Shown here: positions 33,317 to 52,086 of the stretch, piece by piece
Layout of the letters: every line of letters begins with the position of its first letter
Numbering within the stretch: position 1 is the first letter of the stretch
Assembly: GCF_000328765.2 (NCBI RefSeq)
Contig: NC_019954.2
Coordinates: 2,567,780 to 2,631,779, forward strand
Reading direction: 5' to 3'
DNA from: Tepidanaerobacter acetatoxydans Re1
GTDB lineage: Bacteria; Bacillota; Thermosediminibacteria; Thermosediminibacterales; Tepidanaerobacteraceae
Length of the DNA stretch: 64,000 nt
Program-made: the position numbers and the translations under genes
The notes under the pieces: generated by a model
What the model was told of the DNA's origin: nothing
Seen by the model: the letters and a program-made list of their open reading frames with translations, nothing else
Databases searched by the model: none

Positions 33317-33328
33317 AAAACCTCCTTG

Positions 33329-33436
33329 TTATTCTATTTTGGGTGAAACTGTACTTTCTTTTGCATATTTTCTAATATTTACTTTTAAGCAGTCACCTCC
33401 CATAACCAGCTTTGCTGTTTTGCTAAAAGTTTTCAT
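33329..33436 (-). CDS. Possible 35-residue small protein between glsA and the symporter gene
   Basis: An uninterrupted frame starting MKTFSKTAKLVMGGDCLKV, with six G residues directly before its ATG. It fills nearly all the gap between the glutaminase and symporter genes on the same strand. No family is recognised and the ribosome-site spacing is tight. It could be a small accessory protein, or simply spacer sequence. Confidence 0.3.
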   Translation of the reverse strand: MKTFSKTAKLVMGGDCLKVNIRKYAKESTVSPKIE

Positions 33437-33444
33437 CCCCCCTT

Positions 33445-34347: not shown

Positions 34348-34420
34348 AGCACACCATCCTAATCTTAATATCAACATTATATAATCATTGCAATAATCTT
34401 ATGAATAATCCATCTTGTCT

Positions 34421-34449
34421 ATAATACCACTATTTTACATCTGCGGCAA
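34421..34449 (-). promoter_or_regulatory. Probable glsA promoter
   Basis: On the minus strand TTGCCG and TATTAT with a 17-base spacer, about 75 bp before the glsA GTG, in the divergent gap with the second chrA pair. Confidence 0.45.
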
Positions 34450-34591
34450 GCAAATGTTAAAACTAATCCCCAACTATATATTTCCCGTTACCATTGCTTT
34501 TTTAAGCAGCTTTTTGTATGAAATCAGCCTTTCTTTTTTTTAAAATAAGTGTTAAACTCATGGATAGATTATAAAAAAGGATGAAATTTAC

Positions 34592-35134: not shown

Positions 35135-35694
35135 TATACATAAGATTATTTCTGGAATTTTTTAAGGCAGGCTTATTTGCCATAGGCGGGGGGCTTGCAA
35201 CCATACCTTTTCTTCAAGATATATCTCGCAAAACCGGCTGGTTTACATCACAGGAATTGGTTGACATGATTGCCATATCCGAATCTACTCCCGGGCCTAT
35301 CGGCATCAATATGGCAACATATGTAGGCTATGAAACTGCTAATCTGGCAGGGGCAATAATTGCCGTCATAGGGGAAGTTACCCCATCTGTAATCATTATC
35401 GTACTTATTGCACATTACTATCTGAAATTCAGTGAACATCCCATGGTGCAGTCGGGCTTTTACGGCATACGACCTGCCGTAGCCGGTCTGATAGGTGCTG
35501 CAGGGTTTGAAGTGGCAAAAATTTCTCTTTTTAATATTGATAAATACCTGCTCTCACATGATGTTTTTGATATCATAAATATAAAGTCCGTCTTACTGTT
35601 CACGGCAATTGTGTTTTTACTAAATAAATACAAAAAACACCCAATATATTTTCTATTGGGTGCGGCTATAATTGGAATAATATTTAAATTTTAA
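35131..35694 (+). CDS. chrA: Chromate transporter family, half-size subunit (pair 2, second)
   Basis: 187-residue second half of pair 2. FFKAGLFAIGGGLATIPFLQD replaces the usual FGGGYAMIPL, so the first motif is degenerate (IGGGLA). SESTPGPIGINMATYVGYETA is conserved. The changed motif may mean a different substrate from pair 1. It ends with a charged loop and a short last membrane segment. Confidence 0.86.
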   Translation: MIYIRLFLEFFKAGLFAIGGGLATIPFLQDISRKTGWFTSQELVDMIAISESTPGPIGINMATYVGYETANLAGAIIAVIGEVTPSVIIIVLIAHYYLKFSEHPMVQSGFYGIRPAVAGLIGAAGFEVAKISLFNIDKYLLSHDVFDIINIKSVLLFTAIVFLLNKYKKHPIYFLLGAAIIGIIFKF

Positions 35695-35852
35695 TAGAAT
35701 AGATGTAAAAAGTCGTCTAAAAAGCTGCCAAACAATCTCGTTTTATGTCATTGTTATGAATATATACCTAAACAAAGACGCACTTAACTAAGGGTGGTTG
35801 ATTAATCACCCTTCGACCAGCTCAAAGAGCAATGCCCAAAAAAAATTATATT

Positions 35853-37070
35853 TTAGGTAGCCACTGAAACGGGAAATGACACACCTAATTCTTGTAATTT
35901 TTTAAAGTAATAATTAGCTTTTTTCTCTTTATTGAACTTTGTATAATAATCGTTACCTAGATCCTTAAAAGGAACATTATCTTTTAACATGTGGTATATT
36001 GCAATGAGCATGGAATGGGCTACGGCAACAGTTGCTCTATTTGCCCCTCGCCGCACTACTAATCGCTGATATTGAGCATGGAAAAAACTATTTTTATCCT
36101 TTTGGGCAGATTTAGCACATTGAATGAGTGTGCTTTTTAAATATTTATTACCTTTGTTAGTTTTTCCACTTTTACGTTTACCAGCACTCTCATTATTACT
36201 AGGGCATAATCCTGACCATGAGGCAAGGTGAGCAGCAGTTGGAAATCGGCTCATATCAAGTCCTATCTCAGCAAGAATAACTTCAGCACTGCGCGTACCA
36301 ATGCCTGATATTTCATCAATCTTTTTAATTGCATCTTCATAGCTTTTCATATAGCTATTTATGATGTTATCAAGATTGTTGATACGCTTAGTCATATCAT
36401 CGATATGGTCTAGAATAGCGTTTACAAGTAGTTTTTGTACTGATGAAAAGACACCATCCATAGCTAGAAGGAGCTCCGACTTTTTTGATTGCATAGAGCT
36501 GTGAATTAAGTCGTCGATATTTTCTTGATTCACCTCTCCAACTAAAGCTTGCTCTATCAGCTTACGGCTACTTACACCGGTTAAGCTGGAAACGAAAGAA
36601 CTTAGCTTTATATTAGCACCTTCTAAGGTTTTTTCCAGACGATTAAGTTCTCTTGAACGCTCTTCGATTAGATTTTTACGGTAGCGTACTATTTCACGAA
36701 GTTCGCGTTGTTCCTTATCAGGGATAAAACTACTCTTCAAAAGACCATGTTGTAAAAGATCTGCTATCCATTGAGCATCTTTGATATCAGTTTTACGCCC
36801 AGGGACAGTTTTCATGTGATGTGCATTAACAACCATCACATCAATGTTTAGTAATTCCAGAATGTTATAGATAGGTTTCCAATAAGCTCCCGTACTTTCC
36901 ATGGCAACCATCTGACAATTGTTATCAAGGAGCCAATTACCAAGCTCTTTGATACTACAAGTTAATGTGTCAAACTTACGTACTTCTGCTTTTTTCCCGT
37001 TTCTAAAGCAGGCAACAATAAGTTTTTTGTGCACGTCAATCCCACAACAACGCTCATAAACAGTTTGCAT
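35853..37070 (-). CDS. IS110-family transposase (DEDD RuvC-like recombinase)
   Basis: 405 residues. The N-terminal RuvC-like domain holds GIDVHKKLIVACF (first Asp), VAMESTGAYWKP (Glu) and KTDIKDAQWIADLL (Asp pair). The C-terminal Transposase_20 domain has ISGIGTRSAEVILAEIG, then LASWSGLCPSNNESAGKRKSG with the conserved serine nucleophile region. It is full length with a good ribosome site (AAGGAGT) and no frameshift, so it may be active. The non-coding stretch ahead of the gene fits the recently described bridge-RNA organisation. Confidence 0.95.
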   Translation of the reverse strand: MQTVYERCCGIDVHKKLIVACFRNGKKAEVRKFDTLTCSIKELGNWLLDNNCQMVAMESTGAYWKPIYNILELLNIDVMVVNAHHMKTVPGRKTDIKDAQWIADLLQHGLLKSSFIPDKEQRELREIVRYRKNLIEERSRELNRLEKTLEGANIKLSSFVSSLTGVSSRKLIEQALVGEVNQENIDDLIHSSMQSKKSELLLAMDGVFSSVQKLLVNAILDHIDDMTKRINNLDNIINSYMKSYEDAIKKIDEISGIGTRSAEVILAEIGLDMSRFPTAAHLASWSGLCPSNNESAGKRKSGKTNKGNKYLKSTLIQCAKSAQKDKNSFFHAQYQRLVVRRGANRATVAVAHSMLIAIYHMLKDNVPFKDLGNDYYTKFNKEKKANYYFKKLQELGVSFPVSVAT

Positions 37071-37076
37071 AATAAT

Positions 37077-37235
37077 ACTCCTTGCTATTGTTATTATGGC
37101 GTTACCCCTGTCTTAATAGCTACATTGCTATACGTCTTTCAAAGACAATTCGTGGTTCTGCAACAGGAGTATTTTCAAATTCTGAGTCGACCTCATTGTG
37201 ACAATGACACTCGAACTCATGCCATAACTAGAGTA
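37077..37235 (-). ncRNA. Candidate bridge RNA of the IS110 element
   Basis: On the minus strand an extended -10 (TTGGTATACT, near 37236-37245) precedes a compact series of hairpins: GAGTTCGA..TCGACTC enclosing CATTG/CAATG (around 37170-37205), GTCTTT/AAAGAC near 37135, and ATAGC/GCTAT near 37120. They lie directly ahead of the transposase. This matches the position and structured nature of IS110 bridge RNAs, which pair with target and donor DNA. The loops were not matched to flanks. Confidence 0.5.
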
Positions 37236-37354
37236 TACCAAGGAATAGCAATTAATATTCGTTTATTGTGGCGTGGAAACACGTGGGAATTCTGAATGAA
37301 CTATGAACTAAGCAGTGTTTATATAATTCTGAATAAGGCAGGGTTCTAGCCTTC

Positions 37355-37535
37355 TAAATGGTAGGTTTCTGTCATGCCGAGTAAAGTAAAGCGACCTGTC
37401 ATCTGAGTGTAGCAAAGCGAAACGAAGAATCTTAAAAGATAAGTGCAAAGAATCCTAAGAGCTGTTTTATAGAAGATCCTTCGCTGCCGCTCAGGATGAC
37501 ATGTTGGCATGCTAAGGATGACATAATTGTTTTGC
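37355..37535. repeat. Palindromic dispersed repeat (REP/MITE-like)
   Basis: Contains inverted copies of a GTCATC-TGAG-x-AGCGAA-GAATCTT type motif (37397-37436) and its counterpart AGATCCTTCGCTGCCGCTCA (37473-37492) followed by GGATGACATG. Two further GGATGACA/TGTCATG copies lie at the edges. Such TCATCCTGAG-AGCGAAGGATC elements are dispersed in many clostridial and other genomes. It has no coding content and fills most of the gap between the IS element and the MATE gene. Confidence 0.65.
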
Positions 37536-37567
37536 TTTTTCAGAGTTTTCTCAGGCCCCTTTTGCAC

Positions 37568-38953
37568 TTATGAATCTATTATAAGTCTTGCAGCTTCGGC
37601 TCTGTCTACATATTCATTTATATCCTCCTTGACTCGGCGGATGTATATAAATCCTGTAATTGCTGCAATGATATCGGTGGCCGGATAGGCTAACCAAGCA
37701 CCAATTACGCTCCAATGTTTTACGAATATTAGCACTATCGGTATGAATAGCACAAGCTGTCTATAGATTGACAGGAGAAAGCTCATCTTGGCTTCGCCCA
37801 TGGCCTGATAAACATATGTCGATATATAATACAGGCCAATGGTTGGGAAGATACTTATCATAATCCGATATGCGCGAGCGCACTCCTTCATTAATGCCTC
37901 ATCTTTTACAAAACTGCCTATTATCGGCTCTGCAAACAACATCATTATAGCCCATAAGAATACGGAAGTAAGTATTACTACTTTTAGGGTTTTCCTTATA
38001 GTTTCCTTTAACCGTTTAAAATTTTTAGCACCATAATTAAAGGCGACCATTGGCTGCATAGCCGAAGCTATTCCGATTATATTCACATACATTAACATGG
38101 ACACCTTCATAATCGTGCCTGATACGATTACGGCTCTATCTCCCCCATGGGCAAAAAGCACATTGTTAAGCACAACGGCCACTATGGCATCTGATATTTC
38201 TATGATAAATGTGGTAAAGCCTATAGCTATTATAGATTTTAATATTTCTATATCAATACTGAAATTATTTTTTAAATTAATAGACCGTGCAACCTTGTAG
38301 AAGTTATACATGGCAAAAGTACAGGCAGCAATCTGGGATACTACTGTTGCTATTGCAGCGCCTTTTACACCCATATTGTAATTAATGACAAGTATTGCAT
38401 CTATTATTATGTTAAAGACTGCACCGAAGGATGTTGCATATAGTGTAACTTTAGGATTTCCTAAGGAATTGATGATATAACATGTGACAAAGGTCAGACC
38501 TTGGAAAATCCCGCCAATTAATATTATCGCAGTATAAGTTTTTGCCATCGGTAAAGTGACACTACTTGCTCCGCTTCTTAATAAAATAGGCTCCATAAAA
38601 ATATATATAATAAGCGGCATTAAAGTCATGACAGCTACTGTGAGCATAATCGCATTTGTTATTGTAATTTTAAGGTTTTCATAATCTTTTTCGCCAAAGT
38701 ATTTTGCAACTTTTGTGCAGGCACCTGCGGCTATCAAAAGCCCTGTAGATGACAGAAGCCTTTGGATGGGAAATGCTATGGTAAGTGCTCCTATGGCATT
38801 TGGACCTACATATCTGCCTACATAAAATGTATCTACCATTCCGTATAATTCAGAAACAAGTAAAGATATGATAGCCGGAAAAGCAAACCGAAGCAGGACC
38901 TTTTCAACTTTACCTTCTGCAAAAGCTTTGCTGTTTATCCCATTTGAATACAC
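37568..38953 (-). CDS. MATE-family multidrug/toxin exporter
   Basis: 461-residue membrane protein with about 12 transmembrane segments in two homologous halves (VDTFYVGRYVGPNAIGALTIAFP in the first; VNIIGIASAMQPMVAFNYGAK in the second). It exports cationic compounds in exchange for Na+ or H+. It starts with MYSNGINSKAFAEGKVEKVL, typical of the clostridial DinF/NorM-like branch. It lies downstream, on the same strand, of an AraC-type regulator but separated from it by a terminator, so a regulatory link is only possible. Confidence 0.92.
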   Translation of the reverse strand: MYSNGINSKAFAEGKVEKVLLRFAFPAIISLLVSELYGMVDTFYVGRYVGPNAIGALTIAFPIQRLLSSTGLLIAAGACTKVAKYFGEKDYENLKITITNAIMLTVAVMTLMPLIIYIFMEPILLRSGASSVTLPMAKTYTAIILIGGIFQGLTFVTCYIINSLGNPKVTLYATSFGAVFNIIIDAILVINYNMGVKGAAIATVVSQIAACTFAMYNFYKVARSINLKNNFSIDIEILKSIIAIGFTTFIIEISDAIVAVVLNNVLFAHGGDRAVIVSGTIMKVSMLMYVNIIGIASAMQPMVAFNYGAKNFKRLKETIRKTLKVVILTSVFLWAIMMLFAEPIIGSFVKDEALMKECARAYRIMISIFPTIGLYYISTYVYQAMGEAKMSFLLSIYRQLVLFIPIVLIFVKHWSVIGAWLAYPATDIIAAITGFIYIRRVKEDINEYVDRAEAARLIIDS

Positions 38954-39091
38954 TCCTATTTTTATCTTTTATATAACACATCTGATACCTTATTATTGTA
39001 TACTATCAGCTATGCGGTTTTCATTCACTTATTCAAGGAATAACAGGTATCGTTTTAAGGTGTTTGCAAAAAAGGCTTTTCCCGGGAAAAA

Positions 39092-39119
39092 GAAAAAACA
39101 CCTTTGTTTAGGTGCTTTT
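39092..39119 (-). terminator. Terminator of the AraC-type regulator gene
   Basis: On the minus strand AGCACCT/AGGTGTT with a six-base loop followed by TTTTTTCTTTTT, six bp beyond the stop. A 14-bp perfect palindrome TTTTCCCGGGAAAA lies directly after it (39077-39090). Confidence 0.88.
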
Positions 39120-39124
39120 GATAA

Positions 39125-41158
39125 TCAGCTTGCATTAAATAATATTAAGATTGCTCCGTGGCCTCGAATTTTCAAATTAAAATGCTGAACTGGCTTCTTT
39201 TTTCTAAAGTCCATAGTTATTTTAGGAATCGACGACAGCTTTAAAAGCCTTAGCTCTTCATCAGTCAAATGGCAAGGCTCTCCCATAGCCTTCCATTGAT
39301 TGTAGCTGCTATTTATGCTCTCACTTGCCTCGTATATAATTACACGATAGTTGCGCCAAAGGTTGGTAATGTTTAGCGAGAAATTCCTTTCGGCAATATC
39401 ACGGCCCTTTCCGGGTGCTTTCATATCTTGGCCGTTTGTATATAAAAGTATCTGAAAATCCTCCCCCTTTGACGTAACAATATGGCTTTCTCCTTGGTCT
39501 ATTATGGTATCACCCAGCTGCCCTAAAAAATAGTAGGCATAGTATGAAGGTTTCTTCAGCCCTTCCCAGTTTAGCAGCCCCTTATCGCCAAAAAACACCG
39601 TATTAGCAGGGTTTTTAGCTTCTTGTAGTTCATCAATAGCTTTGACTTTATAGGGCTCTTTGTTATTTACTATTTGCCGTATAATAAAGGGGAGCATATA
39701 AGCCGTATCATAAATGGGATTTACATCGTGTTCGTTTAGGCATGCCTCTTTTACAGTAAAATCCCATTCATCCCTTAAAATGCTGTAAAATATATTTTTA
39801 AACTCGTAAGGTGCATCTTTATCTATGGTGTATCTCCATTTGCCGATTTCATAAGTTCCGTATTCTTCCTGGAAATAATCCAGAAAATAAGTCAGCAACT
39901 CTTTATACCTTATCGGTGTAAAGCCTTGAAAATTAAAGACTACATCAGGCCGTAAATCCATGGACATTAACGTATCCATAACTTTTTTCAGCTTTTTAAG
40001 ATTTATAATGCCCTCAGAGTTAATTCCCATTTCCTGTGAAAATACTTCTTTTATACTGCCGTAGTCAAAACCAATTTCGTGCTGAATTGTCCTTAAAGAA
40101 TCACAAACTTCTTTTTCTAAAATACTACAAGCCCTTGGAAGAATAATGGTATCCTTGTAATCGTGGATAAATTCTCCGAGGTTTTTATATACATCTACAT
40201 TAATTTTAACTATTCTTTCTTCATAGTTGTACCTCTCATAATTTTCCAGGTAAGGTGACATGTATTTTAGTGCCGCACTCAAATCGTAAGATGTTATTTG
40301 CTTTGCCTGCTGAAACTTGTCTTCATCCAACTTATATTTCTTGCGGTACTGTAATGGGGTCATTTTGTAATGGCGCTTGAAATGCTTATTATAATACCTG
40401 GTATGAGAAAAACCCACTTCCTCAGATATTTCGGAAATAGTCATATCTGTATCAAGCAGCAGTTTCACCGATTCTTCAGCCCGCGTCAAGTTTACAAAAT
40501 CCTGAAAGCTTATTCCCAGGGCATTTTTAATCTCATTTGAAAGATACTGTGCACTTAGGAATTCCTTCTTTGCGATATCCTGCAAAGATATTTTATTATT
40601 ATAGTTGTTGAATATATACTTGGCTATCCTGTGATAGCGCTGAAGCTGTTCAATATTATCTTTTAAATCCCTGTTTTCATATATCAAATAGTGAAACTCG
40701 TTTATAAGTAAATACAAAAGCTCCACAAGGGTTTCCCTTACATATACATCATAATCCTCGCCCTTTTGCACCGCTTCGCAGAGTATGACGGAAAGATATT
40801 TTTTAAAAATCTCATAGTTTTCACCGACCTGGGATTCTCCTTCAAAAGAACAGTCAGTATAGAAATACATATTTTTTATATCTTCATAATACCTTTGAAA
40901 GAAATTCGGGTCTATATGCAGCATTAGTACAAGGTTTGATTTGTCTGCAAATATCCTATGTGCTTCATCCAAATTTATTATTTCAATTTCATTTTCAATA
41001 AGCCTGTAAGTATCCGACTCAATGGTTACGTTTATACTGCCCTTTAAAACCATGAGAATTTCTATGGATTGGTGCCAGTGTATGGGATATTCCCTTATAT
41101 CCAACAGTTGAATATTAACAGGTATGCTTCCCGTGTACGATATGTGTTCCCTGCGCAT
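39125..41158 (-). CDS. AraC-family regulator with cupin sensor and GH39-like domain
   Basis: About 677 residues. An N-terminal cupin (to about 85; HWHQSIEILMVLKGSINV) is followed by a helical linker and a double helix-turn-helix AraC domain (about 185-285; ISLQDIAKKEFLSAQYLSNEIKN, ISEISEEVGFSHTRYYNKHFKRHY). A large C-terminal part (about 310-600) resembles glycoside hydrolase family 39 barrels. Similar proteins regulate sugar or xyloside genes, the barrel probably acting as a ligand sensor. I chose the second ATG (41158), seven bases after AAGGAG; the ATG at 41164 is too close to it. No sugar-utilisation genes are adjacent, so the regulon is unclear. Confidence 0.85.
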   Translation of the reverse strand: MRREHISYTGSIPVNIQLLDIREYPIHWHQSIEILMVLKGSINVTIESDTYRLIENEIEIINLDEAHRIFADKSNLVLMLHIDPNFFQRYYEDIKNMYFYTDCSFEGESQVGENYEIFKKYLSVILCEAVQKGEDYDVYVRETLVELLYLLINEFHYLIYENRDLKDNIEQLQRYHRIAKYIFNNYNNKISLQDIAKKEFLSAQYLSNEIKNALGISFQDFVNLTRAEESVKLLLDTDMTISEISEEVGFSHTRYYNKHFKRHYKMTPLQYRKKYKLDEDKFQQAKQITSYDLSAALKYMSPYLENYERYNYEERIVKINVDVYKNLGEFIHDYKDTIILPRACSILEKEVCDSLRTIQHEIGFDYGSIKEVFSQEMGINSEGIINLKKLKKVMDTLMSMDLRPDVVFNFQGFTPIRYKELLTYFLDYFQEEYGTYEIGKWRYTIDKDAPYEFKNIFYSILRDEWDFTVKEACLNEHDVNPIYDTAYMLPFIIRQIVNNKEPYKVKAIDELQEAKNPANTVFFGDKGLLNWEGLKKPSYYAYYFLGQLGDTIIDQGESHIVTSKGEDFQILLYTNGQDMKAPGKGRDIAERNFSLNITNLWRNYRVIIYEASESINSSYNQWKAMGEPCHLTDEELRLLKLSSIPKITMDFRKKKPVQHFNLKIRGHGAILILFNAS

Positions 41159-41322
41159 GTGCATACTCCTTGCAAGTCTTAGTTTGCTCTGATACCTTTA
41201 TTATACCACATTGACATTGTAACAGCTAAGCTTAGGTAAAGTCCCAAACATAGTTAGACCCCAGGATTTCCCGGATATTAAAGCTGAGATTATATATGAA
41301 GGAAATCTTGATACTTTAAAAT

Positions 41323-43521
41323 CTAAAGTTTGAGCTTGGCTAGAGCATCAGCCAATTCGGTATTAATGGGCTTATCTTCGTCCTTTTTCTGTTTTTGCAG
41401 ATATTTTGCTACATCTCTTTTTGAAACCTTATTATTGCCTTCGCTTGCCTTTCTTTCATTAAAAGCCGAAAGTTTTTCTCTATAACCACAGTTGCATATA
41501 AAGATTTGACCTTCCCCTTCCCCATGTAGCTCCAGTCTTTTATGACAATTGGGGCACCTGGCATTGGTTACTTTGCTCAGCTTCTCTCTGTATCCGCATT
41601 CTCGGTCTTGGCAGATAAGCATCTTGCCCTTTTTACCATTGACCTCCAGCATGTATTTCCCGCATTGGGGGCATTTGCTTCGGGTGAGATTGTCATGTCT
41701 GAACTTGTCTTCGCTGTTTTTAATGTCTTGAACTGCTCTTTTAGCATAATTTTTCATATCATTTACAAAAGTATCTTTTTTAAGGGCACCTTGGGCAATG
41801 GCACTTAGTTTTTGTTCCCACTGAGCAGTCAGAGCGGGAGACTTGAGTTCCTCAGGAACTAGGTCCAATAGCTGCCGACCCTTGGAGGTAATAAAGATAT
41901 CTTTACCTCTTTTTTCAATCAAGAAACTGTTAAAGAGCTTTTCTATGATATCGGCCCGTGTGGCAACGGTCCCTATACCTCCCGTTTCACCAATTACCTT
42001 AATCAAATCCTTGTTGTCTTTGGGCATGTATTTTACCGGGTTTTCCATGGCCGCAAGCAAAGTTCCTTCATTTAATGGAGCCGGTGGCCTTGTTCGTCCT
42101 TGAGTTTGAAAAATAGAAGTTATCTTTAGGATGTCACCTTTACTCATGGTAGGTAGTATTTGCTCAAAAATTCCATCATTTAAGTTCTCATCTTCCGAGG
42201 ATTCATCGTCAAAGCCTTCATAAACCTCTTTCCATCCTAAAGCTATAACAGTTTTCCCTTTGGCGATGAATATCTCTGTACCGATTTTAGCTTTTATGGT
42301 GGTTTGCTCATACTCAAAAGGTGGATACATTGCCGCTAAAAAGCGTTTTACCACGAGATCATATATTTTTCTTTCATTCTCGCTTAAGGAATCCAAAAAA
42401 GCCGGCTGTTCAGTAGGTATGATAGCATGGTGATCAGTTACTTTTCCGTTATCCACAAAGCTTTTGTTGCCTTTTATGGGTCGTTTAATCTTAAAAGCCG
42501 CCGTCCTGTAAGGCCCGACTCCGCAGGCTTTAACCCGGTCCTCCAGCGTAGCCACTATATCTGTTGTGATAAACCTGGAGTCAGTCCTGGGATATGTCAG
42601 CAGCTTGTGGTTTTCGTATAGTCTTTGCATTATAGATAGGGTTTCCTTTGCGGAAAACCCGAAAATTTTATTTGCATCCCTTTGAAGCTGCGTCAAATCG
42701 TATAACTGTGGTGCAAAACTTTTTTTCAGCGTTTTAGTTACATCAATTACCTCAGCATTTTTACCTCTCAGAGATGCCAGGATTCTATCAATTTTACCCT
42801 TATCAAAGGTCCTTATATCTCTTGTTTGGCTATCCTGCCATACCAGTTTCAAATTGCCCACGGTAGCAGTTATGCCGTAAAAATCCCTAGGCTTAAAGTT
42901 CTGAATTTCTTCTTCCCTCTTTGCAATCATTGCCAATGTCGGTGTTTGTACTCTCCCACAGGATAACTGTGCATTGTGCTTACAAGTCAAAGCCCGGGTG
43001 GCATTGATACCCACCAGCCAATCGGCTTCGGCTCGGGCCACTGCCGATGCATAAAGATTTTCATATTGTTTGCCGTCTTTTAAATTATTGAATCCATCTC
43101 TTATGGCTTTATCGGTCACCGATGAAATCCACAAGCGTTTAATGGGCTTTTTGACATTGGCCATTTTTATTATCCATCTTGCCACCAGTTCGCCTTCCCG
43201 CCCTGCATCAGTGGCTATAACGATACTATTCACATCGTTTCTGTTCATTTGTTCTTTAACTATATTAAATTGCCTTCTGCTCTGCTTGATAATCTCCAGC
43301 TTCAAATCCTTGGGCAGTATAGGCAAATCCTCCATCCGCCAAGATTTATACCTATTGCCGTAGGCTTCAGGTTCGGCCAAAGTAACCAGATGGCCTAAAG
43401 CCCAAGTTATGATATACTTTTGCCCTTCAAGATAACCATTTCCGTTTTTCCCGCAATTCATAACCCTGGCTATGTCCCTTGCTACCGATGGCTTTTCAGC
43501 TAATACCAGTGTTTTACTCAC
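41323..43521 (-). CDS. topB: DNA topoisomerase III (type IA)
   Basis: About 732 residues. N-terminal Toprim (KTLVLAEKPSVARDIARVM; ATDAGREGELVARWI), then the active-site tyrosine region LYENHKLLTYPRTDSRFI (Tyr in TYPRTDS). A C-terminal tail has zinc-ribbon motifs (CPQCGKYMLEV..CQDRECGYREK; CPNCHKRLEL..CNCGYREK). It relaxes or decatenates single-stranded crossings, and RecQ helicases are its classical partner; a recQ gene lies about 1 kb upstream on the same strand, beyond a small permease gene. I chose the GTG at 43521 over the TTG at 43530, since homologues start SKTLVLAEKPSVA. Confidence 0.94.
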   Translation of the reverse strand: MSKTLVLAEKPSVARDIARVMNCGKNGNGYLEGQKYIITWALGHLVTLAEPEAYGNRYKSWRMEDLPILPKDLKLEIIKQSRRQFNIVKEQMNRNDVNSIVIATDAGREGELVARWIIKMANVKKPIKRLWISSVTDKAIRDGFNNLKDGKQYENLYASAVARAEADWLVGINATRALTCKHNAQLSCGRVQTPTLAMIAKREEEIQNFKPRDFYGITATVGNLKLVWQDSQTRDIRTFDKGKIDRILASLRGKNAEVIDVTKTLKKSFAPQLYDLTQLQRDANKIFGFSAKETLSIMQRLYENHKLLTYPRTDSRFITTDIVATLEDRVKACGVGPYRTAAFKIKRPIKGNKSFVDNGKVTDHHAIIPTEQPAFLDSLSENERKIYDLVVKRFLAAMYPPFEYEQTTIKAKIGTEIFIAKGKTVIALGWKEVYEGFDDESSEDENLNDGIFEQILPTMSKGDILKITSIFQTQGRTRPPAPLNEGTLLAAMENPVKYMPKDNKDLIKVIGETGGIGTVATRADIIEKLFNSFLIEKRGKDIFITSKGRQLLDLVPEELKSPALTAQWEQKLSAIAQGALKKDTFVNDMKNYAKRAVQDIKNSEDKFRHDNLTRSKCPQCGKYMLEVNGKKGKMLICQDRECGYREKLSKVTNARCPNCHKRLELHGEGEGQIFICNCGYREKLSAFNERKASEGNNKVSKRDVAKYLQKQKKDEDKPINTELADALAKLKL

Positions 43522-43591
43522 AAATCTCAACCTTCCGCTTCCCCTCGTCGGGGATGATTATTAATTTTAACAGCATAACTAACCTTTTTTT

Positions 43592-43600
43592 ATTATATCA
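43592..43600 (-). promoter_or_regulatory. Extended -10 promoter of topB
   Basis: TGATATAAT on the minus strand, about 75 bp ahead of the topB start. The leader contains a small CCCC/GGGG hairpin near 43545. Confidence 0.5.
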
Positions 43601-43685
43601 TAAAAGGCGAGATATAAGCGGTTGGTCGATGACCGCCCATACTATATAATTGATGATAGATTTTTTTGATAATTCGTGCTAGTAT

Positions 43686-43719
43686 TATAGTAACTAACAT
43701 ATATATGTTAGTTACTATA
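43686..43719. promoter_or_regulatory. Perfect 34-bp palindrome, probable operator
   Basis: Each half reads TATAGTAACTAACATAT and the two halves are exact reverse complements, with no spacer. It lies between divergent topB and the small permease gene. GTTAGTTACTAT/ATAGTAACTAAC half sites of this type fit a MarR/HxlR-like dimeric repressor, but no regulator gene is adjacent. A partial third half site (GTTAGTTATAAC) follows at 43724-43735, inside the symporter-derived fragment. Confidence 0.6.
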
Positions 43720-43795
43720 AACCTGTTAGTTATAACAAAATTTGGGTCAATTGCTTATGCTGCATTTGAAAACTATGTATCACAACTAAAAGTTG
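43716..43795 (+). pseudogene. Remnant of an AGCS symporter gene 3' end
   Basis: Reads NLLVITKFGSIAYAAFENYVSQLK and is about 90% identical in DNA (seven differences in 74 bases) to the part of the symporter gene at 31910-33316 that encodes the last membrane segment and following loop. The frame continues into unrelated sequence. It has no start of its own and appears to be a truncated paralogue or captured fragment. It separates the palindrome from the permease gene. Confidence 0.75.
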
Positions 43796-43837
43796 TTTTA
43801 CAATTTGTCGTTAAAAAACAAGGGAGGGAAAGGAGAA

Positions 43838-44356
43838 TTGTTAAGTAAGATATTTGATTCTACCACTTTGGGTTTTATGGCGGCTGCAATCATATTATTT
43901 ATTATTGTATGGATTAAAGATGCATCATTGGCCGTATCTGCTTCAAAAGACGGTTTAACCCTTTTTGTAAGATATGCAGTGCTTATTATTTCCTCTATGC
44001 TCATTGCCGCCTATATTCAGGTACTGATTCCTAAAGACCTGATAACTTCATATCTTGGCGGCGCTTCCGGTTTTAAAGGCATATTTTTAGGAAGCCTTAT
44101 AGGCGGTCTGACTCCCGGCTCTCCATATGCCGCACTGCCGTTTTTTGCCGGCATCATGCGTATGGGAGCAAGTGTGCCTACGACTGTGGCCATGGTATGT
44201 GCATGGGGTCTCTGGTCCATTGGCCGTATTCCTTTAGAGGCCGCTGTCATGGGCGCGAAGTTTACTATGATTCAGGTAATAAGCAGTTTTATTCTTCCGA
44301 TTCTCGCCGGTCTAGTGGCATGGTTCCTCGAGACTATACCGTGGTTTATGACTTGA
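43838..44356 (+). CDS. Small permease (UPF0718/ArsP-like half)
   Basis: 172-residue membrane protein with about four to five hydrophobic segments. The signature is IGGLTPGSPYAALPFFAGIMRMGA, similar to one half of the UPF0718 permeases related to ArsP. Its substrate is unknown. The TTG start at 43838 follows GGGAAAGGAG. It is a half-size version, since full-length UPF0718 proteins carry two such motifs, so a dimer or missing partner is likely. The palindrome at 43686 suggests dedicated regulation. Confidence 0.75.
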   Translation: MLSKIFDSTTLGFMAAAIILFIIVWIKDASLAVSASKDGLTLFVRYAVLIISSMLIAAYIQVLIPKDLITSYLGGASGFKGIFLGSLIGGLTPGSPYAALPFFAGIMRMGASVPTTVAMVCAWGLWSIGRIPLEAAVMGAKFTMIQVISSFILPILAGLVAWFLETIPWFMT

Positions 44357-44398
44357 CCAATTACATCTGTTGCAGAAGATGTGCTGCACATTTATGCC

Positions 44399-46588
44399 CT
44401 ATAAATGCTTGCAAATCACCAATCGTATATCTGAATAACTAATTTCTTCCGGCAAAGCCTCTTTAATAGGTTTTAGTTTTTCCGCACCTACTTTCTCAAT
44501 TGCATTTAAAATCTGTTTCTCTTTTTCCGAATCGATGAACCTTGACCAGTCAACGATTTTACCTTCTTGTTGACATCTTTCCAAATGGTTTATTATGGTA
44601 TTTTCAGTAAGGTTTCTTTGTTGTGCTATTTCTTTCAGCGACAATCCTTTAAGATAACAGTTGTAGGTCAGTTCATAGCGGCCAGTTTTAGTATTATCCT
44701 CTTGCAACTCACCTGGTAAGCTGTCAATCATGGTGTTATTTGCTATCTGTCTCCTAAGCTCATTGACATCTAACCCCTCTGTTTGGATATATTCATTTAT
44801 CAGGCAAACAAACTCCTCTCCATAGCTTTCATACTTTTTCTGGCCGACACCCTTTATTTTGAAGAATTCTTCCCGGTTTCGCGGCATGAATGCAGCCATT
44901 TCCCTTAAACTCGAGTCATGAAAAATTATATATGTTGGCAGGTTTTTCTCCTGGGCTATGGTTTGCCTTAAGTTTTTTAGCCGCTTGAAAAGTTCTTTGT
45001 CAAAATTATTGTTTATTCGCTCTGCAAAGAGCCTTTTTTCTTTTGACAAATTCGCTTTTTGAAGTAAATCTTTTTTATGAAAGAATTTTGTCTTACCATG
45101 TAATATTTCCCAGGAAATATCGGTGAGCTTTAGGATGGGAAACTTATCGGCAGTCATATGGATATATCCGTTTGATACTAAAGCCATTATCATTTCTTTT
45201 ATGGCATCACTGCTGTACTCTTGCATGATTTTATATGTAGAAATTTTATCCAGACCATATTCAATTACCCTCTTGCTTTTCGAACCTCGCAAAACCTGCA
45301 CAACAGTATTGACACCATAGTTCTGATTCACTCTGTATATGCATGATAATATTTTTTGTGCTTCTGTTGTAATATCAACCCTTTCCGATTGGTCCAAGCA
45401 GTTGCCGCAATTTTTACAGTTTTTCTGCTGTGCATCTTCACCGAAATAGACTAATATTTTATTTCTGAGACAATCATCAGTATGACAATAGTCTACCAAA
45501 TACTGGAGATTTTGGTACATAGCAGTTTCCCGCTCAGGAGAAAGATTTTCACTTTGTATTATAATCTTTTGTTTTACGATGTCTGCCGGAGAATACATTA
45601 AAATGCAGTCGCTTTTCTCCCCATCGCGGCCCGCTCTGCCCGCTTCCTGGTAATAAGCCTCCATATTTTTAGGCATATTATAGTGAATCACAAACCTTAT
45701 ATCAGGTTTGTCTATTCCCATTCCAAAAGCATTTGTGGCTGCGATTATCCTAACCTTGTCCAGCATGAAATTATCTTGATTTTCTTGCCTTGCCTCTGAG
45801 CTCATACCGCCGTGATATCCAACAACTGAAATGTCATAATCTTGGAGTTTCTTTACTAGAGATTCTACGGTCTTTCTGGTAGCGCAATATACTATCCCGG
45901 ATTCATTGGTATAATTGTTTTTCAAGTAGTTCAGCAAATATGAAAACTTATTGCTGGGTTTTACAACCTGATAAAACAGATTAGGCCTGTCAAACCCTGT
46001 TATGACCTCAAGGGGATTTTTTAGGCCTATTAAATTCTTTATTTCTTCAATAATTTCCTTGGTAGCCGTAGCTGTAAAAGCAGCTACCACTGGTCGAGGA
46101 TAAAGTGAATTTATGAATTTGGGGATTTCAAGATAGCTGGGTCTAAAATCATGACCCCATTGACTTATACAATGTGCCTCATCAATGGCTACCAGTGAGA
46201 TTTTCATATCCTTTGCCAAATTTAAAAACAAATTGGTGTTTAAGCGTTCCGGCGCTACATATATTAATTTGTACTTGCCATTTCGTATTTCATTAAGCCT
46301 TGTGATAAATTCATCATAATCTAAGGTACTGTTTATAAAAGTTCCCGCTAAGCCCATTTCATTCAAAGAATCTACCTGGTCCTTCATCAGAGAAATAAGC
46401 GGTGATACAACTATAGTTACACCTTCTAACATAGTTGCCGGCAGTTGATAACACAGGGATTTACCTCCCCCTGTGGGCATTATCCCCAAAACATCCCTGC
46501 CTGCAAGTATTGCATTTACCACCTTTTCCTGGCCTTTTTTAAAATTATCATATCCAAAATACGTCTTTAATGTTTCATATATACCCAT
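44399..46588 (-). CDS. recQ: ATP-dependent DNA helicase RecQ
   Basis: 729-residue 3'-5' helicase. Walker A MPTGGGKSLCYQLPA, DEAH box AIDEAHCISQWGHDFRPSY, motif VI QEAGRAGRDG, the zinc-binding cysteines (CLRNKILVYF..CKNCGNC), then RQC winged helix, an HRDC domain (about 520-600) and a C-terminal helix-turn-helix extension (LSLKEIAQQRNLTENTIINHL), as in Bacillus-type RecQ. It acts in recombination repair and pairs functionally with topoisomerase III, encoded nearby. Good ribosome site GAGGTGAACTT. It converges with the permease gene, about 40 bp between stops. Confidence 0.95.
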   Translation of the reverse strand: MGIYETLKTYFGYDNFKKGQEKVVNAILAGRDVLGIMPTGGGKSLCYQLPATMLEGVTIVVSPLISLMKDQVDSLNEMGLAGTFINSTLDYDEFITRLNEIRNGKYKLIYVAPERLNTNLFLNLAKDMKISLVAIDEAHCISQWGHDFRPSYLEIPKFINSLYPRPVVAAFTATATKEIIEEIKNLIGLKNPLEVITGFDRPNLFYQVVKPSNKFSYLLNYLKNNYTNESGIVYCATRKTVESLVKKLQDYDISVVGYHGGMSSEARQENQDNFMLDKVRIIAATNAFGMGIDKPDIRFVIHYNMPKNMEAYYQEAGRAGRDGEKSDCILMYSPADIVKQKIIIQSENLSPERETAMYQNLQYLVDYCHTDDCLRNKILVYFGEDAQQKNCKNCGNCLDQSERVDITTEAQKILSCIYRVNQNYGVNTVVQVLRGSKSKRVIEYGLDKISTYKIMQEYSSDAIKEMIMALVSNGYIHMTADKFPILKLTDISWEILHGKTKFFHKKDLLQKANLSKEKRLFAERINNNFDKELFKRLKNLRQTIAQEKNLPTYIIFHDSSLREMAAFMPRNREEFFKIKGVGQKKYESYGEEFVCLINEYIQTEGLDVNELRRQIANNTMIDSLPGELQEDNTKTGRYELTYNCYLKGLSLKEIAQQRNLTENTIINHLERCQQEGKIVDWSRFIDSEKEKQILNAIEKVGAEKLKPIKEALPEEISYSDIRLVICKHL

Positions 46589-46762: not shown

Positions 46763-46879
46763 TCCATTTTAAATGAATTTTTACATAGATTCCGCTTACC
46801 CTCTGCTGCAAAATATTTGATTTTATTCTGTTTTATAATTTTTCTTCTTATGTCAGTACTCTTAAAATCAAGTTTTTAA

Positions 46880-48859
46880 TTACTGCACTGCAGTTTGTTT
46901 CAAAATTTCATTAATTACTTTTTCAACTGTGGCTTCTCCAATCAGCACATCATCGACCATAACGCATGGGCTTTGTGTGCAATTTTCGAAACAGAATGTT
47001 GCAGCAAGTTCTACTTTATCCTTAAAATCTTCTTGACTCAATTTATCCTTTAGGGTTGAAAAAAGGTCATAGGCACCTGACAGATAGCAGCATGTGCCCA
47101 CACACACTTTTACAACTCTTTTTTTAGCAGTATTCAATTGCCCTTCAAAAAAGCATATACTTTCATTAATTCTTTTTCGATTTGTATAGGCTGTGTGGAG
47201 CATTGCATGAGCTTTAGCACTTCCCGGCTCACCGAGATTGTCTTTATATAGGTCTTTTATTACTGGGTTTTCTATGGGAGATTTAAGCTGCATAAGTTTT
47301 TCATGTCCAAAGAGACCTTGTTTTCGGCTTTTTCTTATATTATTGCTGTTCGGCTGAGGTTGACCGCCGCCTCCTATACATCCGCCAGAACATGCCATTA
47401 CTTCTATCAAGTCATAGTATTTATTCCCGGCTCTTAAATCTTCAAGAAGCTTTTTTGCATTACCTAATCCCGAAACTGTTGCAACTTTAATTTTTCTTGC
47501 ATTATAATCTATTTCAGCTGTTTTTATGTTTGGGTTATCCTTATCTGCTTTAAAATCAGGTTCTTTTCCGATTACCCTCATTACGGCAGTTGCCACACCT
47601 TTGCTGCCGCCAAAGATAACTCCGCCTCCCGTAGCAAAGCCAAGAGGCATGTCAAAGGGCATCTCTTCCACCTCATCGAAGACTACTCCGGCTTCCCTTA
47701 TCATTCTTGCAAGCTCCTGTGTGGTAAGCACTGCATCAACATCCGGAATACCATTCTTGAAAAATTCTTCCCGTTTAGCTTCAGACTTTTTCGCCGTACA
47801 TGGCATTATAGAAACTACGAATATATTTTCAGAGTCTGTGCCCATGGCTTTGGCATAAATGCCCTTCATCAGTGAGCCAAACATTTGTTGAGGAGATCTG
47901 CAGGTAGAAATGTTGTCCTTATACTGCGGATAGTGCAGCTCCACATATTTTACCCACGCAGGACAGCATGATGTAAATTGAGGCAAACGTTGGTTTTTAG
48001 AAATCCTTTCTAGGAATTCACAGGATTCTTCTATTGCAGTAACATCTGCTGCAAAACAAGTATCAAAAACCTTATCAAATCCTATTTTTTTCAAAGCACC
48101 TACGACTTTTCCGGTTGCAGGGGTACCGGGTTTTAAGCCGAATTCTTCTCCAAGGGAAACTCTTACAGCCGGAGCAATCTGAGCTACTACTGTTTTTTGT
48201 GGGTCGTAAAGGGCAGACCACACCTTTTCCATATGTGATGCTATTGTCAGCGCTCCTGTCGGACAAACTGCCGCACATTGGCCGCAATCCACGCAATTGA
48301 CTTCGGAAATATTCTTGTTAAAAGGCGGCACAACCTTGGCATTGCTGCCTCTATATGCAAAACCCAGCACACCTACACCTTGCACTTCTTCGCACATTCT
48401 AACACAATCTCCACATAAGATGCACTTGTTTGGATCTCTTACTATAGCAGGGCTTGAATCATCTATAGGCAGCCTACCGTTTTTCTGTCCAAATCGGATT
48501 TCCCCAATTCCTAAAATGTTTGCCAATTCCTGTAGGCGGCAGTTGCCGCTCTTTACACAGGTTGTGCACTCTCTATCGTGGTTTGCCAGCAAAAGCTCTA
48601 AAGTAACCCTTCTCTGACGTATTAGCCTTTCTGTATGAGTCCTGATAGACATTCCGGGGCGAGGCGGGGTTGAGCATGCTGCCATTATTCTGCCGTTATC
48701 ATCTTCTACCAGGCACATCCTGCATGCACCATATACCGAAAGCTCTGAATGATAGCAGAAAGTTGGAAGCTCAATGCCAGCTTTTCGTATTACTTCCAAG
48801 AGATTGGCTTCATCAGTAAACGACACTTGTTTTCCGTTTATTTTCATAGTCTTTTCCAT
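46880..48859 (-). CDS. hydA: [FeFe]-hydrogenase catalytic subunit, multimeric NAD-linked type
   Basis: 659 residues. An N-terminal [2Fe-2S] ferredoxin domain (CYHSELSVYGACRMC), the His-Cys3 cluster site (HDRECTTCVKSGNC), two [4Fe-4S] motifs (CILCGDCVRMC; CVDCGQCAAVCP) and the H-cluster domain with TSCCPAW, MPCTAKKSEAKR and ACSGGCIGGGGQ, then the small-subunit region. A C-terminal thioredoxin-like [2Fe-2S] domain (CVGTCCYLSGA; CFENCTQSPC) is an extra found in some HydA. With HydB and HydC it forms the trimeric hydrogenase that, in relatives, bifurcates electrons between ferredoxin and NAD(H). Maturase genes hydEFG are not in the window. Confidence 0.95.
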   Translation of the reverse strand: MEKTMKINGKQVSFTDEANLLEVIRKAGIELPTFCYHSELSVYGACRMCLVEDDNGRIMAACSTPPRPGMSIRTHTERLIRQRRVTLELLLANHDRECTTCVKSGNCRLQELANILGIGEIRFGQKNGRLPIDDSSPAIVRDPNKCILCGDCVRMCEEVQGVGVLGFAYRGSNAKVVPPFNKNISEVNCVDCGQCAAVCPTGALTIASHMEKVWSALYDPQKTVVAQIAPAVRVSLGEEFGLKPGTPATGKVVGALKKIGFDKVFDTCFAADVTAIEESCEFLERISKNQRLPQFTSCCPAWVKYVELHYPQYKDNISTCRSPQQMFGSLMKGIYAKAMGTDSENIFVVSIMPCTAKKSEAKREEFFKNGIPDVDAVLTTQELARMIREAGVVFDEVEEMPFDMPLGFATGGGVIFGGSKGVATAVMRVIGKEPDFKADKDNPNIKTAEIDYNARKIKVATVSGLGNAKKLLEDLRAGNKYYDLIEVMACSGGCIGGGGQPQPNSNNIRKSRKQGLFGHEKLMQLKSPIENPVIKDLYKDNLGEPGSAKAHAMLHTAYTNRKRINESICFFEGQLNTAKKRVVKVCVGTCCYLSGAYDLFSTLKDKLSQEDFKDKVELAATFCFENCTQSPCVMVDDVLIGEATVEKVINEILKQTAVQ

Positions 48860-48862
48860 GGC

Positions 48863-50740
48863 TTATTCCTCCCTTATGGCATCAAAGGGGCATGCATCTA
48901 TACATGCAAGACACCGCAAGCATCGAGTAATGTCAATTTTATGAGGTTCCCTCGTTTTGCCTTCAATAGCCGATGCAGGACATATTTTCCTGCATTTTCC
49001 GCAGCCGCGGCATTTATCCGGGTCAATGGCAAGTTGACCAAGGCCTTTACATACCTTTGAGGGGCATCTTTTTTCAACTACATGTGCCATATATTCATCT
49101 TTAAAATATTTCATCGTTGTCAATACCGGGTTAGGCGCAGTCTTCCCAAGACCGCACAAGGAACCGATTTTTACTACTTCGGCAAGCTCCTCTAAAAGTT
49201 GTAAGTCTTTTATATTCGCATTACCTGACACTATCTTTTCTAAAATCTCCAGCATCCTTTTTGTTCCTTCTCGACATGGCACACATTTGCCGCAGGATTC
49301 TCTTTGGGTAAAATCCATAAAAAACCGGGCCACTTCCACCATACAGCTATCCTCATCTAAAACTACCAAACCGCCTGAACCCACCATAGCACCGGCAGCC
49401 TCCAGAGAATCAAAGTCCATAGAAATATCAAGATGCTCTTCGGTCAAACATCCGCCTGAAGGGCCTCCAATCTGAACCGCCTTAAACTTCTTGCCGTTTC
49501 TTATACCTGCACCTATATCAAATATTATTTGGCGAAGTGTAATACCCATAGGCACTTCAATTAAGCCCGTGTTGTTTATATTGCCTGTCAATGCAAATAT
49601 TTTCGTTCCGGGGCTTCCGGGAGTACCTATGGACAGATACCAATCAGCTCCGTTAGATATTATAAGAGGTACATTTGCAAAGGTTTCTACATTGTTTAAA
49701 ACCGTAGGTTTCCCAAAAAGGCCCTTTTCAACAGTGCGAGGCGGTCTGGGTCGAGGCATTCCTCTAAAGCCTTCAATAGACTGAGTAAGCGCCGAACCCT
49801 CACCACATACAAACGCACCTGCTCCCTTGTTGATATGAATATCAAAATCAAAATTGCTGCCTAATATGTTTTTCCCGAGAAATCCCCATTCATGTGCTTG
49901 TTGTATGGCCACCTGCAGTCTTTTAACCGCCAGAGGATATTCACCTCTTACATATATGTAGCCTTCCCTGGCTCCAGATGCATATCCTGCTATTATCATG
50001 CCTTCCAGCATCTGATGAGGATCACCTTCCATTACACTGCGATCCATGAAGGCTCCGGGATCTCCTTCATCTCCATTGCACACCACATACTTTATATCCG
50101 CATCCTGCATAAGAACCTGTTTCCACTTTTTCCCTGTCGGAAACCCTGCTCCACCGCGCCCTCTAAGTCCGGATTTTAAAATCTCATCACAGACCTCTTC
50201 AGGTGTCATTTTCATTAACACCTTTGCAAGTGCTTTATAACCGCCACATACAATATAATCTCTTATGTCCTCGGCATCAATTTTGCCGCAGTTTTTCAGC
50301 ACAAGGCGCGTTTGACGGCGATAAAAAGGAATTTCCTCTTCTTTTAGAAACTCTTTTTTCTCGGCAGAGTCTTTAAACAAAAGCCGCTTAACAGGTTGCT
50401 TTCTCAAGACTGTGCTTTCAACAATCTCCTCAACATCCTCGGCCTTTACCTTTACATATAAATAGCCTTCAGGTTCAATTCTAACAAGAGGGCCCATTTC
50501 ACAAAATCCGTGGCAGCCGCTAGAAGATATGCCGACTCCTTCTTTCCCTTCTTGAATTAGCTTTAGATCAGTATAAAGCCCCTTCTTGTGTAAAATTTCT
50601 TTGAACTTTTCGTAGACATCTAGTGAACCGTTAGCAATACACCCGGTCCCTCCGCATACAAGAATACGCATGTGGTAGCCTTGCACCATTTTGCTCAACT
50701 CATCATATTTCCCTTGCAACTCATCAACTGTCCTGATCAT
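48863..50740 (-). CDS. hydB: Hydrogenase subunit HydB (NuoF-like, NAD/FMN-binding)
   Basis: 625 residues. An N-terminal thioredoxin-like [2Fe-2S] domain (CGGTGCIANGS; CHGFCEMGP) precedes the NuoF core with NADH/FMN loops GRGGAGFPTGKKW and GEGSALTQSIEG, the [4Fe-4S] ligands CGKCVPCREGT..CGLG, and two C-terminal [4Fe-4S] motifs (CRGCGKCRKICPA; CLRCLACIDACP). This is the flavin subunit where bifurcation is thought to take place in Thermotoga/Thermoanaerobacter-type HydABC. It overlaps hydC by 17 bp and precedes hydA by three. Confidence 0.95.
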   Translation of the reverse strand: MIRTVDELQGKYDELSKMVQGYHMRILVCGGTGCIANGSLDVYEKFKEILHKKGLYTDLKLIQEGKEGVGISSSGCHGFCEMGPLVRIEPEGYLYVKVKAEDVEEIVESTVLRKQPVKRLLFKDSAEKKEFLKEEEIPFYRRQTRLVLKNCGKIDAEDIRDYIVCGGYKALAKVLMKMTPEEVCDEILKSGLRGRGGAGFPTGKKWKQVLMQDADIKYVVCNGDEGDPGAFMDRSVMEGDPHQMLEGMIIAGYASGAREGYIYVRGEYPLAVKRLQVAIQQAHEWGFLGKNILGSNFDFDIHINKGAGAFVCGEGSALTQSIEGFRGMPRPRPPRTVEKGLFGKPTVLNNVETFANVPLIISNGADWYLSIGTPGSPGTKIFALTGNINNTGLIEVPMGITLRQIIFDIGAGIRNGKKFKAVQIGGPSGGCLTEEHLDISMDFDSLEAAGAMVGSGGLVVLDEDSCMVEVARFFMDFTQRESCGKCVPCREGTKRMLEILEKIVSGNANIKDLQLLEELAEVVKIGSLCGLGKTAPNPVLTTMKYFKDEYMAHVVEKRCPSKVCKGLGQLAIDPDKCRGCGKCRKICPASAIEGKTREPHKIDITRCLRCLACIDACPFDAIREE

Positions 50741-51227
50741 TGCAGCTTACCTCCTTTATATCATTAATCAGCTGCCTTACCTTCTCAGGTGTCATATTGC
50801 CATATACCTTGTCGTTTATAACAATCACAGGTGCTAGACCACATGCTCCCAAGCACGAAACAGTCTCAAGCGTAAAGAGCATATCATCGGTCGTTTTTGC
50901 ATCACCTTTTAAATTCAGTATTTCTTTGGTAGTAGATAGGATTTTATCCGAATTTCGCACATGACATGCCGTTCCATCGCAGACCTTTATCAGATTTTTC
51001 CCTTTTGGCTCCAGTGAAAAGCTTTCATAAAAAGTAGCAACGCCAAATATTCTAGATGGCGCTATTCTCATAGCAGTGGAAATGTAAACAAGAATTTCTT
51101 CCGGCAAATAGCGATAAATCTCCTGCACTTCCTGAAATATGCTTATAAGATTTGACGGTTTATAATCATATTTTTCAAGAATCTCGTTTACCTTTTCAAA
51201 GTTTCTGCATGAAATATCATTTACCAA
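50724..51227 (-). CDS. hydC: Hydrogenase subunit HydC (NuoE-like)
   Basis: About 167 residues with one [2Fe-2S] cluster: CDGTACHVRNS and CLGACGLAPV supply the four cysteines in NuoE order. It passes electrons between HydB and the other subunits. I chose the TTG at 51227, eight bases after AAGGAGG; the GTG at 51248 overlaps the ribosome site. It is the first gene of hydCBA, transcribed from the promoter at 51356-51384. Confidence 0.92.
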   Translation of the reverse strand: MVNDISCRNFEKVNEILEKYDYKPSNLISIFQEVQEIYRYLPEEILVYISTAMRIAPSRIFGVATFYESFSLEPKGKNLIKVCDGTACHVRNSDKILSTTKEILNLKGDAKTTDDMLFTLETVSCLGACGLAPVIVINDKVYGNMTPEKVRQLINDIKEVSCNDQDS

Positions 51228-51355
51228 ATTTAAGTCCTCCTTTATCACGGTATTTTGAAATCCAATGCATATGTGATTGTTAATACTTTCACAAATAAGA
51301 GCAAAAAATAAAGCCGTAAAATATTGGTTACCCGTGTCTTTTATCTTTGATAGAT

Positions 51356-51384
51356 ATTATATTTTATTGTTAAATATTTGTCAA
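51356..51384 (-). promoter_or_regulatory. hydCBA promoter with overlapping Rex-like operator
   Basis: Perfect TTGACA and TATAAT with 17-base spacing on the minus strand. The -35 region sits within TTGTTAAATATTTGTCAA (51367-51384, plus strand), which matches the Rex consensus TTGTTAA-N4-TTAACAA at 12 of 14 defined positions. Rex represses fermentative and hydrogenase genes at high NAD+/NADH; overlap with the -35 box fits repression. The leader is about 120 bases long. Confidence 0.8.
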
Positions 51385-51565
51385 TATATATTATACTTTA
51401 TTTTTCTCAAAAAACGAAATAAAATCATATGCGTTATGGACTGTATAATAAAAATGCCGGCAAAGCAATGTTCCCCCAGGTTAATGCAAAGTCAATTTAA
51501 TTAGTGTAAACTTTTTGAGCCAATTGAATAATATACTATTAAAGTATAAAAAGGAGGATGGTGGT

Positions 51566-51940
51566 ATGATAATATATATTGTACAATCCGGCGACACTCT
51601 CAGCATGATAGCAAATCGATTCAATGTTACCGTCCAAAAAATTATAGAAAACAATTGGGTCGGAACTGATATGATGATTGTTCCGGGGCAAATTCTCTTC
51701 ATCCCCAGAGACCAGTATGCATGTGATGCAGAAGATGCTATGGATCCTCTATCAATGCTAAAACCTTATATTAAACAGGAAGTCCTTTATGTTGTGCAGC
51801 GCGGAGATACCCTAACCGCTATTTCACGAAGGTTTGACAGTACAGTAGACGCCGTTGTAAAAGCCAACAACTTAGAAGGCCCCAGTGCCACAATATATAC
51901 CGGCCAAGTTCTCAGAATTCCAATTATCGGGTTTCGGTAA
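51566..51940 (+). CDS. Two-LysM-domain protein
   Basis: 124-residue protein consisting almost only of two LysM domains (about 1-48, IYIVQSGDTLSMIANRFNV; about 75-122, LYVVQRGDTLTAISRRFDS) joined by a short acidic linker. LysM binds N-acetylglucosamine in peptidoglycan or spore cortex. There is no signal peptide, as in several spore-coat or cortex LysM proteins, so a spore role is possible. The ATG at 51566 has AAGGAGG eight bases upstream; a longer frame upstream is unlikely. Confidence 0.85.
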   Translation: MIIYIVQSGDTLSMIANRFNVTVQKIIENNWVGTDMMIVPGQILFIPRDQYACDAEDAMDPLSMLKPYIKQEVLYVVQRGDTLTAISRRFDSTVDAVVKANNLEGPSATIYTGQVLRIPIIGFR

Positions 51941-51949
51941 AATTAACTA

Positions 51950-52004
51950 CCCCCTCATCTTATAGAAATATAACTATTTATTTAGATGAGGGGGTGATTC
52001 TTTT
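51950..52004. terminator. Terminator between the LysM gene and the jet operon
   Basis: CCCCCTCATCT/AGATGAGGGGG with a 23-base AT-rich loop and TTCTTTTAT after it on the plus strand. It can serve the LysM gene and possibly the convergent jetC. Confidence 0.8.
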
Positions 52005-52086
52005 ATATTAGGCCGGCCAAGCTTTTAAATTATGCAAGCAGGCACTTGTCTTGGTCATTTTTACAACAGCAGTAATTCCTTTTTTA

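Follow-up and report, generated by a model that had tools for sequence, protein, structure and literature searches.

Template switching, in the account of PMC8794818 drawn on here, is a process in which the nascent strand folds back and copies itself, so that a perfect hairpin is made in a single event. In Escherichia coli, template switching was reported, in the part of PMC7202029 drawn on here, to make quasipalindromes perfect, and it was assayed there with a 4-bp frameshift reporter. A possible natural counterpart is described here from the chromosome of Tepidanaerobacter acetatoxydans Re1 (G000; 2.76 Mb), within an analysed stretch of 64,000 nucleotides, hereafter the 64-kb window. The locus is a perfect palindrome lying between the divergent genes for DNA topoisomerase III and a half-size permease, and it was originally predicted to be the target of a repressor. 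That observation was confirmed and sharpened, whereas the interpretation attached to it found partial support at best. A fold-back scar bordering a pseudogene is the likeliest account of the palindrome.

The palindrome and its flanking genes

The palindrome spans positions 43685–43720, with no strand assigned to it, and consists of the arms TTATAGTAACTAACATAT (43685–43702) and ATATGTTAGTTACTATAA (43703–43720), each of 18 nt, 100% complementary and separated by a spacer of 0 nt. It therefore has the form looked for in a template-switch product, namely reverse-complement arms with little or no spacer. The original prediction had placed a 34-bp palindrome at 43686–43719; its perfect dyad symmetry and lack of a spacer hold, and its length has to be corrected to 36 bp, by one more base on each side. 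Such a structure had been called unlikely by chance, and this was borne out, as the longest loop-free arm in 100 dinucleotide-preserving shuffles of the window was 7–10 nt, against 18 nt here. No second loop-free perfect palindrome with arms of at least 9 nt was found in the 64-kb window. The palindrome is also single-copy: neither a further copy of the whole, allowing up to three mismatches, nor a recurrence of its core was found in the 2.76-Mb genome, and the 17-nt arm, again with up to three mismatches, gave 15 and 15 matches compared with 16 and 20 in a reversed control. The absence of recurrence and the shuffle result together indicate that the palindrome is neither a chance structure nor a dispersed repeat. 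A dispersed repeat, which had been named as the outcome that would overturn the prediction, and an insertion-sequence end were rejected for the palindrome, given the lack of other copies of it or its arms in this genome.

The predicted absence of a following T-tract also holds. The sole terminator-like match within 43520–43860 sits at 43539–43554, no intrinsic terminator was called at 43685–43720, and the sequence 3' of the stem reads ACCTGTTAG. Elsewhere, at the very start of the window (19–50), a near-perfect hairpin with 15-nt arms and a 1-nt loop is followed by a T run and is terminator-like.

On one side of the palindrome lies topB (41323–43530, minus strand; TIGR01056). On the other lies a gene for a half-size ArsP_1 (DUF318-type) permease of 172 aa (43838–44356, plus strand), whose TTG start at 43838 stands behind GGAGGGAAAGGAGAA. 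Its Pfam match exceeds the cut-off and covers positions 16–130 of the 294 in ArsP_1, in agreement with the designation "half-size"; that the permease is divergent from topB and that no regulator is adjacent were likewise correct. The only other ArsP_1 match in the genome is a full-size gene with an open frame of 346 aa. No second half adjoins this lone gene, and by eye a second ArsP_1-like open reading frame was likewise not seen at four homologues outside the genus (L005, L006, L007 and L011; 66–72% identical). The permease and its orthologue in the sister species differ at 2, 3 and 10 of the first, second and third codon positions, respectively (172 of each). This distribution points to purifying selection, so the permease is presumably expressed.

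A symporter gene remnant at the edge of the palindrome

The DNA 3' of the palindrome was found to be a gene remnant, a feature that the original prediction had missed and that is new in this analysis. When positions 43585–43850 were used as a DNA query against 13 genomes of the family, a second place was found in the strain's own genome: 43718–43790 (plus strand) is identical at 67 of 73 positions (92%) to 32058–31986 on the minus strand, the 3' coding end of an intact gene for an AGCS sodium:alanine/amino-acid symporter (31910–33316, minus strand; TIGR00835 and PF01235). The match begins at the right edge of the palindrome. A tblastn search with the AGCS protein gave an independent match at 43705–43791, covering residues 416–444 (29 residues, 66%) in frame and running into the right arm from 43705. 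This extension into the arm is a weak match, equalled in score by 969 of 20,000 random AT-rich five-codon pieces (approximately 5%). The palindrome hence adjoins the AGCS remnant and, judging from the translated match, probably overlaps it. Comparison of the left arm with the inverted remnant gave a match no better than shuffles (269/2000), and a small inverted repeat at the far end of the remnant was not significant (475/1000).

That the end of a gene is duplicated directly 3' of the palindrome favours a rearrangement scar. The palindrome is tentatively regarded as the product of a fold-back, or template switch, at the truncated 5' edge of the AGCS pseudogene remnant, a reading that falls just short of even confidence. 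During replication or repair of a broken end, the nascent strand would have turned back on itself and served as its own template over about 18 nt, leaving a single inverted duplication; a later 4-bp change in one lineage may have come about through the same process or through ordinary decay. The palindrome now lies between topB and the permease gene, in a leader where an RNA hairpin or a cruciform may form, and it would require no dedicated DNA-binding protein. The fold-back reading is based on the remnant itself, on its edge, which falls at the right arm or within it, on arms of 18 bp that are perfect and have no spacer, and on the shortened, imperfect version in the sister species. The scar model must, in turn, treat as coincidence both the half site at two TetR-type promoters and the clustering of TTAGTTA that are described below.

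Some further features were noted around the intact symporter gene. The segment 30155–34592, which carries a chromate-transporter-like pair, the AGCS symporter gene and a glutaminase-like open reading frame, has no counterpart in a 19-kb stretch of the sister species; the chromate-transporter and glutaminase names were given by reading. An open reading frame at 35853–37070 resembles an IS110-type transposase, as judged by reading its translation.

Comparison with relatives

Among the 13 genomes of the family, only three hold the region, and the palindrome is present in all of them: G000 itself, a sister species of the same genus (G001) and G002. The AGCS remnant was also found in G001 and G002 by tblastn, and in G001 this search gave no AGCS match besides the remnant. 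In G012 the single match is that genome's own AGCS gene. G002 is identical to G000 over the region (266/266), an identity that says nothing about conservation, as the two genomes do not differ anywhere across 43025–43906, a stretch of 882 bp that also takes in part of topB.

At the palindrome site, the sister species reads TATAGTAACTAATATATATTACTTACTATA, which is 4 bp shorter, contains one internal mismatch and has lost the outer pair. The substitution beside the 4-bp loss leaves the centre symmetric; the other two break pairs and look like decay. The 4-bp length change together with the symmetry-keeping substitution fits the template-switch class of mutation. A short open reading frame spanning the palindrome (43666–43848) was considered and rejected, as it has no Pfam match over the cut-off and is broken by the 4-bp change. 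Four of the 15 events among the non-coding changes between the two species fall in the palindrome (36 of 249 sites; P of approximately 0.15 for an excess), and the palindrome is no more conserved than its surroundings. A 57-bp run of identity between the two (43640–43696, plus strand) takes in the outer part of the left arm and promoter-like sequence, and is not significant, being expected in 27% of random placements (P of approximately 0.27). None of the 13 family genomes shows the state that preceded the palindrome, so its origin is not observed directly.

The wider neighbourhood differs in several respects between the two species. The permease segment (43589–44360) and a hydrogenase-side block (46816–55660) are 96% identical to the sister species, compared with approximately 76% for 25742–41205, and this step marks a recombination or transfer boundary at 43589. 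In the sister species, topB is missing between an AraC-type gene and the permease gene, and recQ (44399–46588), on the other side of the permease gene, is likewise missing. In T. acetatoxydans, topB is flanked by near-identical 12-mers, TTTATTATACCA and TTTATTATATCA (41197–41208 and 43589–43600), the pattern expected where short direct repeats bound a deletion (or insertion).

Is the palindrome an operator?

The main rival to a scar is a TetR-type operator, a reading that is possible but doubtful. A TetR repressor encoded elsewhere would bind TAACTAA...TTAGTTA around the transcript start of the permease, and perhaps also the lone half site in the leader of topB, thereby blocking transcription. 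The half site TTAGTTA occurs in the left arm (43691–43697, minus strand) and in the right arm (43708–43714, plus strand), a third time within the AGCS remnant (43726–43732, plus strand) and a fourth time in the topB leader (43576–43582, minus strand). These are four of the 11 copies in the window, lying within 157 bp at the palindrome, and TAACTAA is the only one of the 448 7-mers with six A/T that reaches four copies within 160 bp anywhere in the window, although two of the clustered copies are the arms of the palindrome itself and one belongs to the gene remnant. The copy in the remnant corresponds to the coding sequence GTAGTTA of the intact AGCS gene, and at least one "half site" is consequently of gene origin.

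A scan of the genome for the half site had been proposed as a check, and it turned up a TetR promoter with the same half site but no regulon. Only three TAACTAA-N0-30-TTAGTTA pairs occur in the genome, compared with one in the control: the palindrome, a pair with a spacer of 18 and a pair at the promoter of a TetR gene (G000:C1:713107), where TTGACA and TATACT are followed by TAACTAA-N4-TTAGTTA before the start. The pair with a spacer of 18, between a 394-aa open reading frame and a regulator-like one, looks like chance. In G207, AGTAACTAAC-CA-GTTAGTTACT, with the same 10-bp half site as the palindrome, stands in front of a TetR-like gene; this gene was named from its resemblance to the TetR gene of G000, for which a match to PF00440 was found. 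The DNA-binding (HTH) ends of the two TetR proteins are 53% identical over 60 residues. The arrangement TAACTAA-N4-TTAGTTA is thus common to two TetR-type promoters (G000:C1:713107–713124, L056, and G207:C1:148191–148212, L050), a small useful by-product of the analysis. Across 398 genomes of the phylum, AGTAACTAAC-N0-16-GTTAGTTACT occurs in three (G000, G002 and G207); it was also found in two stretches of a viral collection, with other spacings and with no recognised regulator among open reading frames judged by eye. The excerpts of the literature matches listed for GTTAGTTACT contained nothing recognisable as operator work, and those listed for TetR, operator and TTAGTTA did not report this operator.

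The points against an operator concern geometry, conservation and genomic context. The two half sites are spaced by N10 at the palindrome but by N4 at the TetR promoters. In dimeric repressors, a 6-bp change in spacing turns the half sites to a different side of the helix. The sister species keeps neither the spacing (N6) nor the right half site (TTACTTA). The best 17-bp half-site matches upstream of the genome's own four TetR genes reach 11–12 of 17 positions, no more than random sequence gives (mean 11.3). The palindrome has no TetR gene next to it, and no regulon of the site was found in the genome: GTAACTA-N0-20-TAGTTAC occurs at the palindrome only, and outward pairs of the form TAGTTA...TAACTA, 10 in the genome compared with 30 in the reversed control, were rejected as a regulon. 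The palindrome is absent upstream of all five permease homologues outside the genus (L005, L006, L007, L008 and L011; 59–72% identical), as is TTAGTTA; a perfect inverted repeat with arms of at least 9 nt occurs upstream of L008 only and is unrelated to the palindrome. This count leaves out L012–L015 (34–38% identical), which are mostly tandem half-size genes.

From the original prediction of an operator, what survives is a half site held in common with two TetR promoters; the spacing, the altered version in the sister species and the five homologues lacking the palindrome speak against it. The guess of a MarR/HxlR-like repressor is unsupported rather than refuted: no regulator adjoins the palindrome, and the only operator-like company found is of the TetR type.

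Other explanations

An RNA hairpin in the leader is a possible but unlikely explanation. The permease transcript would carry a stem of 16–18 bp that protects the mRNA or tunes translation or elongation, through its shape and not its sequence. As RNA, the arms form a 16-bp stem with a 4-nt loop (−18.0 kcal/mol), and the predicted fold of the 221-nt leader is better than that of any of 200 shuffles (z −3.3), largely owing to the palindrome. The version in the sister species is still able to form a hairpin after the 4-bp change but a far weaker one, with one mismatch (−6.5 kcal/mol). The stem leaves the ribosome-binding site uncovered, and a known RNA family was rejected, as no Rfam family matches within the 64-kb window.

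The scar and the operator might also be combined, which is a rather improbable proposal. A fold-back at the broken symporter pseudogene would have doubled a TTAGTTA-like piece of former coding sequence, and the resulting putative half sites, with the copies in the remnant and the topB leader, would be read by the TetR protein encoded 1.9 Mb away, coupling the permease and topB. As the remains of a mobile element, the palindrome would consist of two terminal inverted repeats placed end to end or be a miniature element. Its position, where rearranged DNA begins and a gene fragment has been moved, would suit this reading, which is nevertheless very improbable: the genome holds no second copy of an arm beyond the level of the reversed control at up to three mismatches, and inspection by eye showed no target duplication on the flanks.

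Comparison with known systems

The locus is a compact natural case of a perfect palindrome, a structure that ordinarily marks a regulator site, bordering a decayed gene. It cautions that symmetry alone is insufficient for calling operators, and it allows a test of whether half sites can arise ready-made by template switching.

How does the locus compare with described systems? The candidate regulated gene belongs to the ArsP_1/DUF318 half-size permeases by its Pfam match over the cut-off, but it is a single half gene here and its homologues outside the genus lack the palindrome. With the TetR operator-like TAACTAA-N4-TTAGTTA, the palindrome shares the 7-bp half site (10 bp in the case of G207) and a location near promoter-like sequence, but its spacer is N10, or N6 in the sister species, and an adjacent TetR gene is absent. 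The quasipalindrome template-switch mutations of E. coli (Lovett laboratory; PMC7202029), as far as the cited part describes them, are alike in the perfect inverted repeat, the AT-rich non-coding place and a 4-bp length change near the centre, which here lies between relatives; they differ in that the event here is inferred from sequence, with the ancestral state absent from the genomes compared. For the template-switch hairpins of mammalian microRNAs and rRNA genes (Monttinen and Loytynoja; PMC8794818), the cited part describes phylogenies that show the event, whereas only three genomes carry the site here. The same hairpins resemble the palindrome of T. acetatoxydans in the one-step origin of a perfect reverse-complement stem, as proposed here, and in the presumed decay of that stem in a sister lineage.
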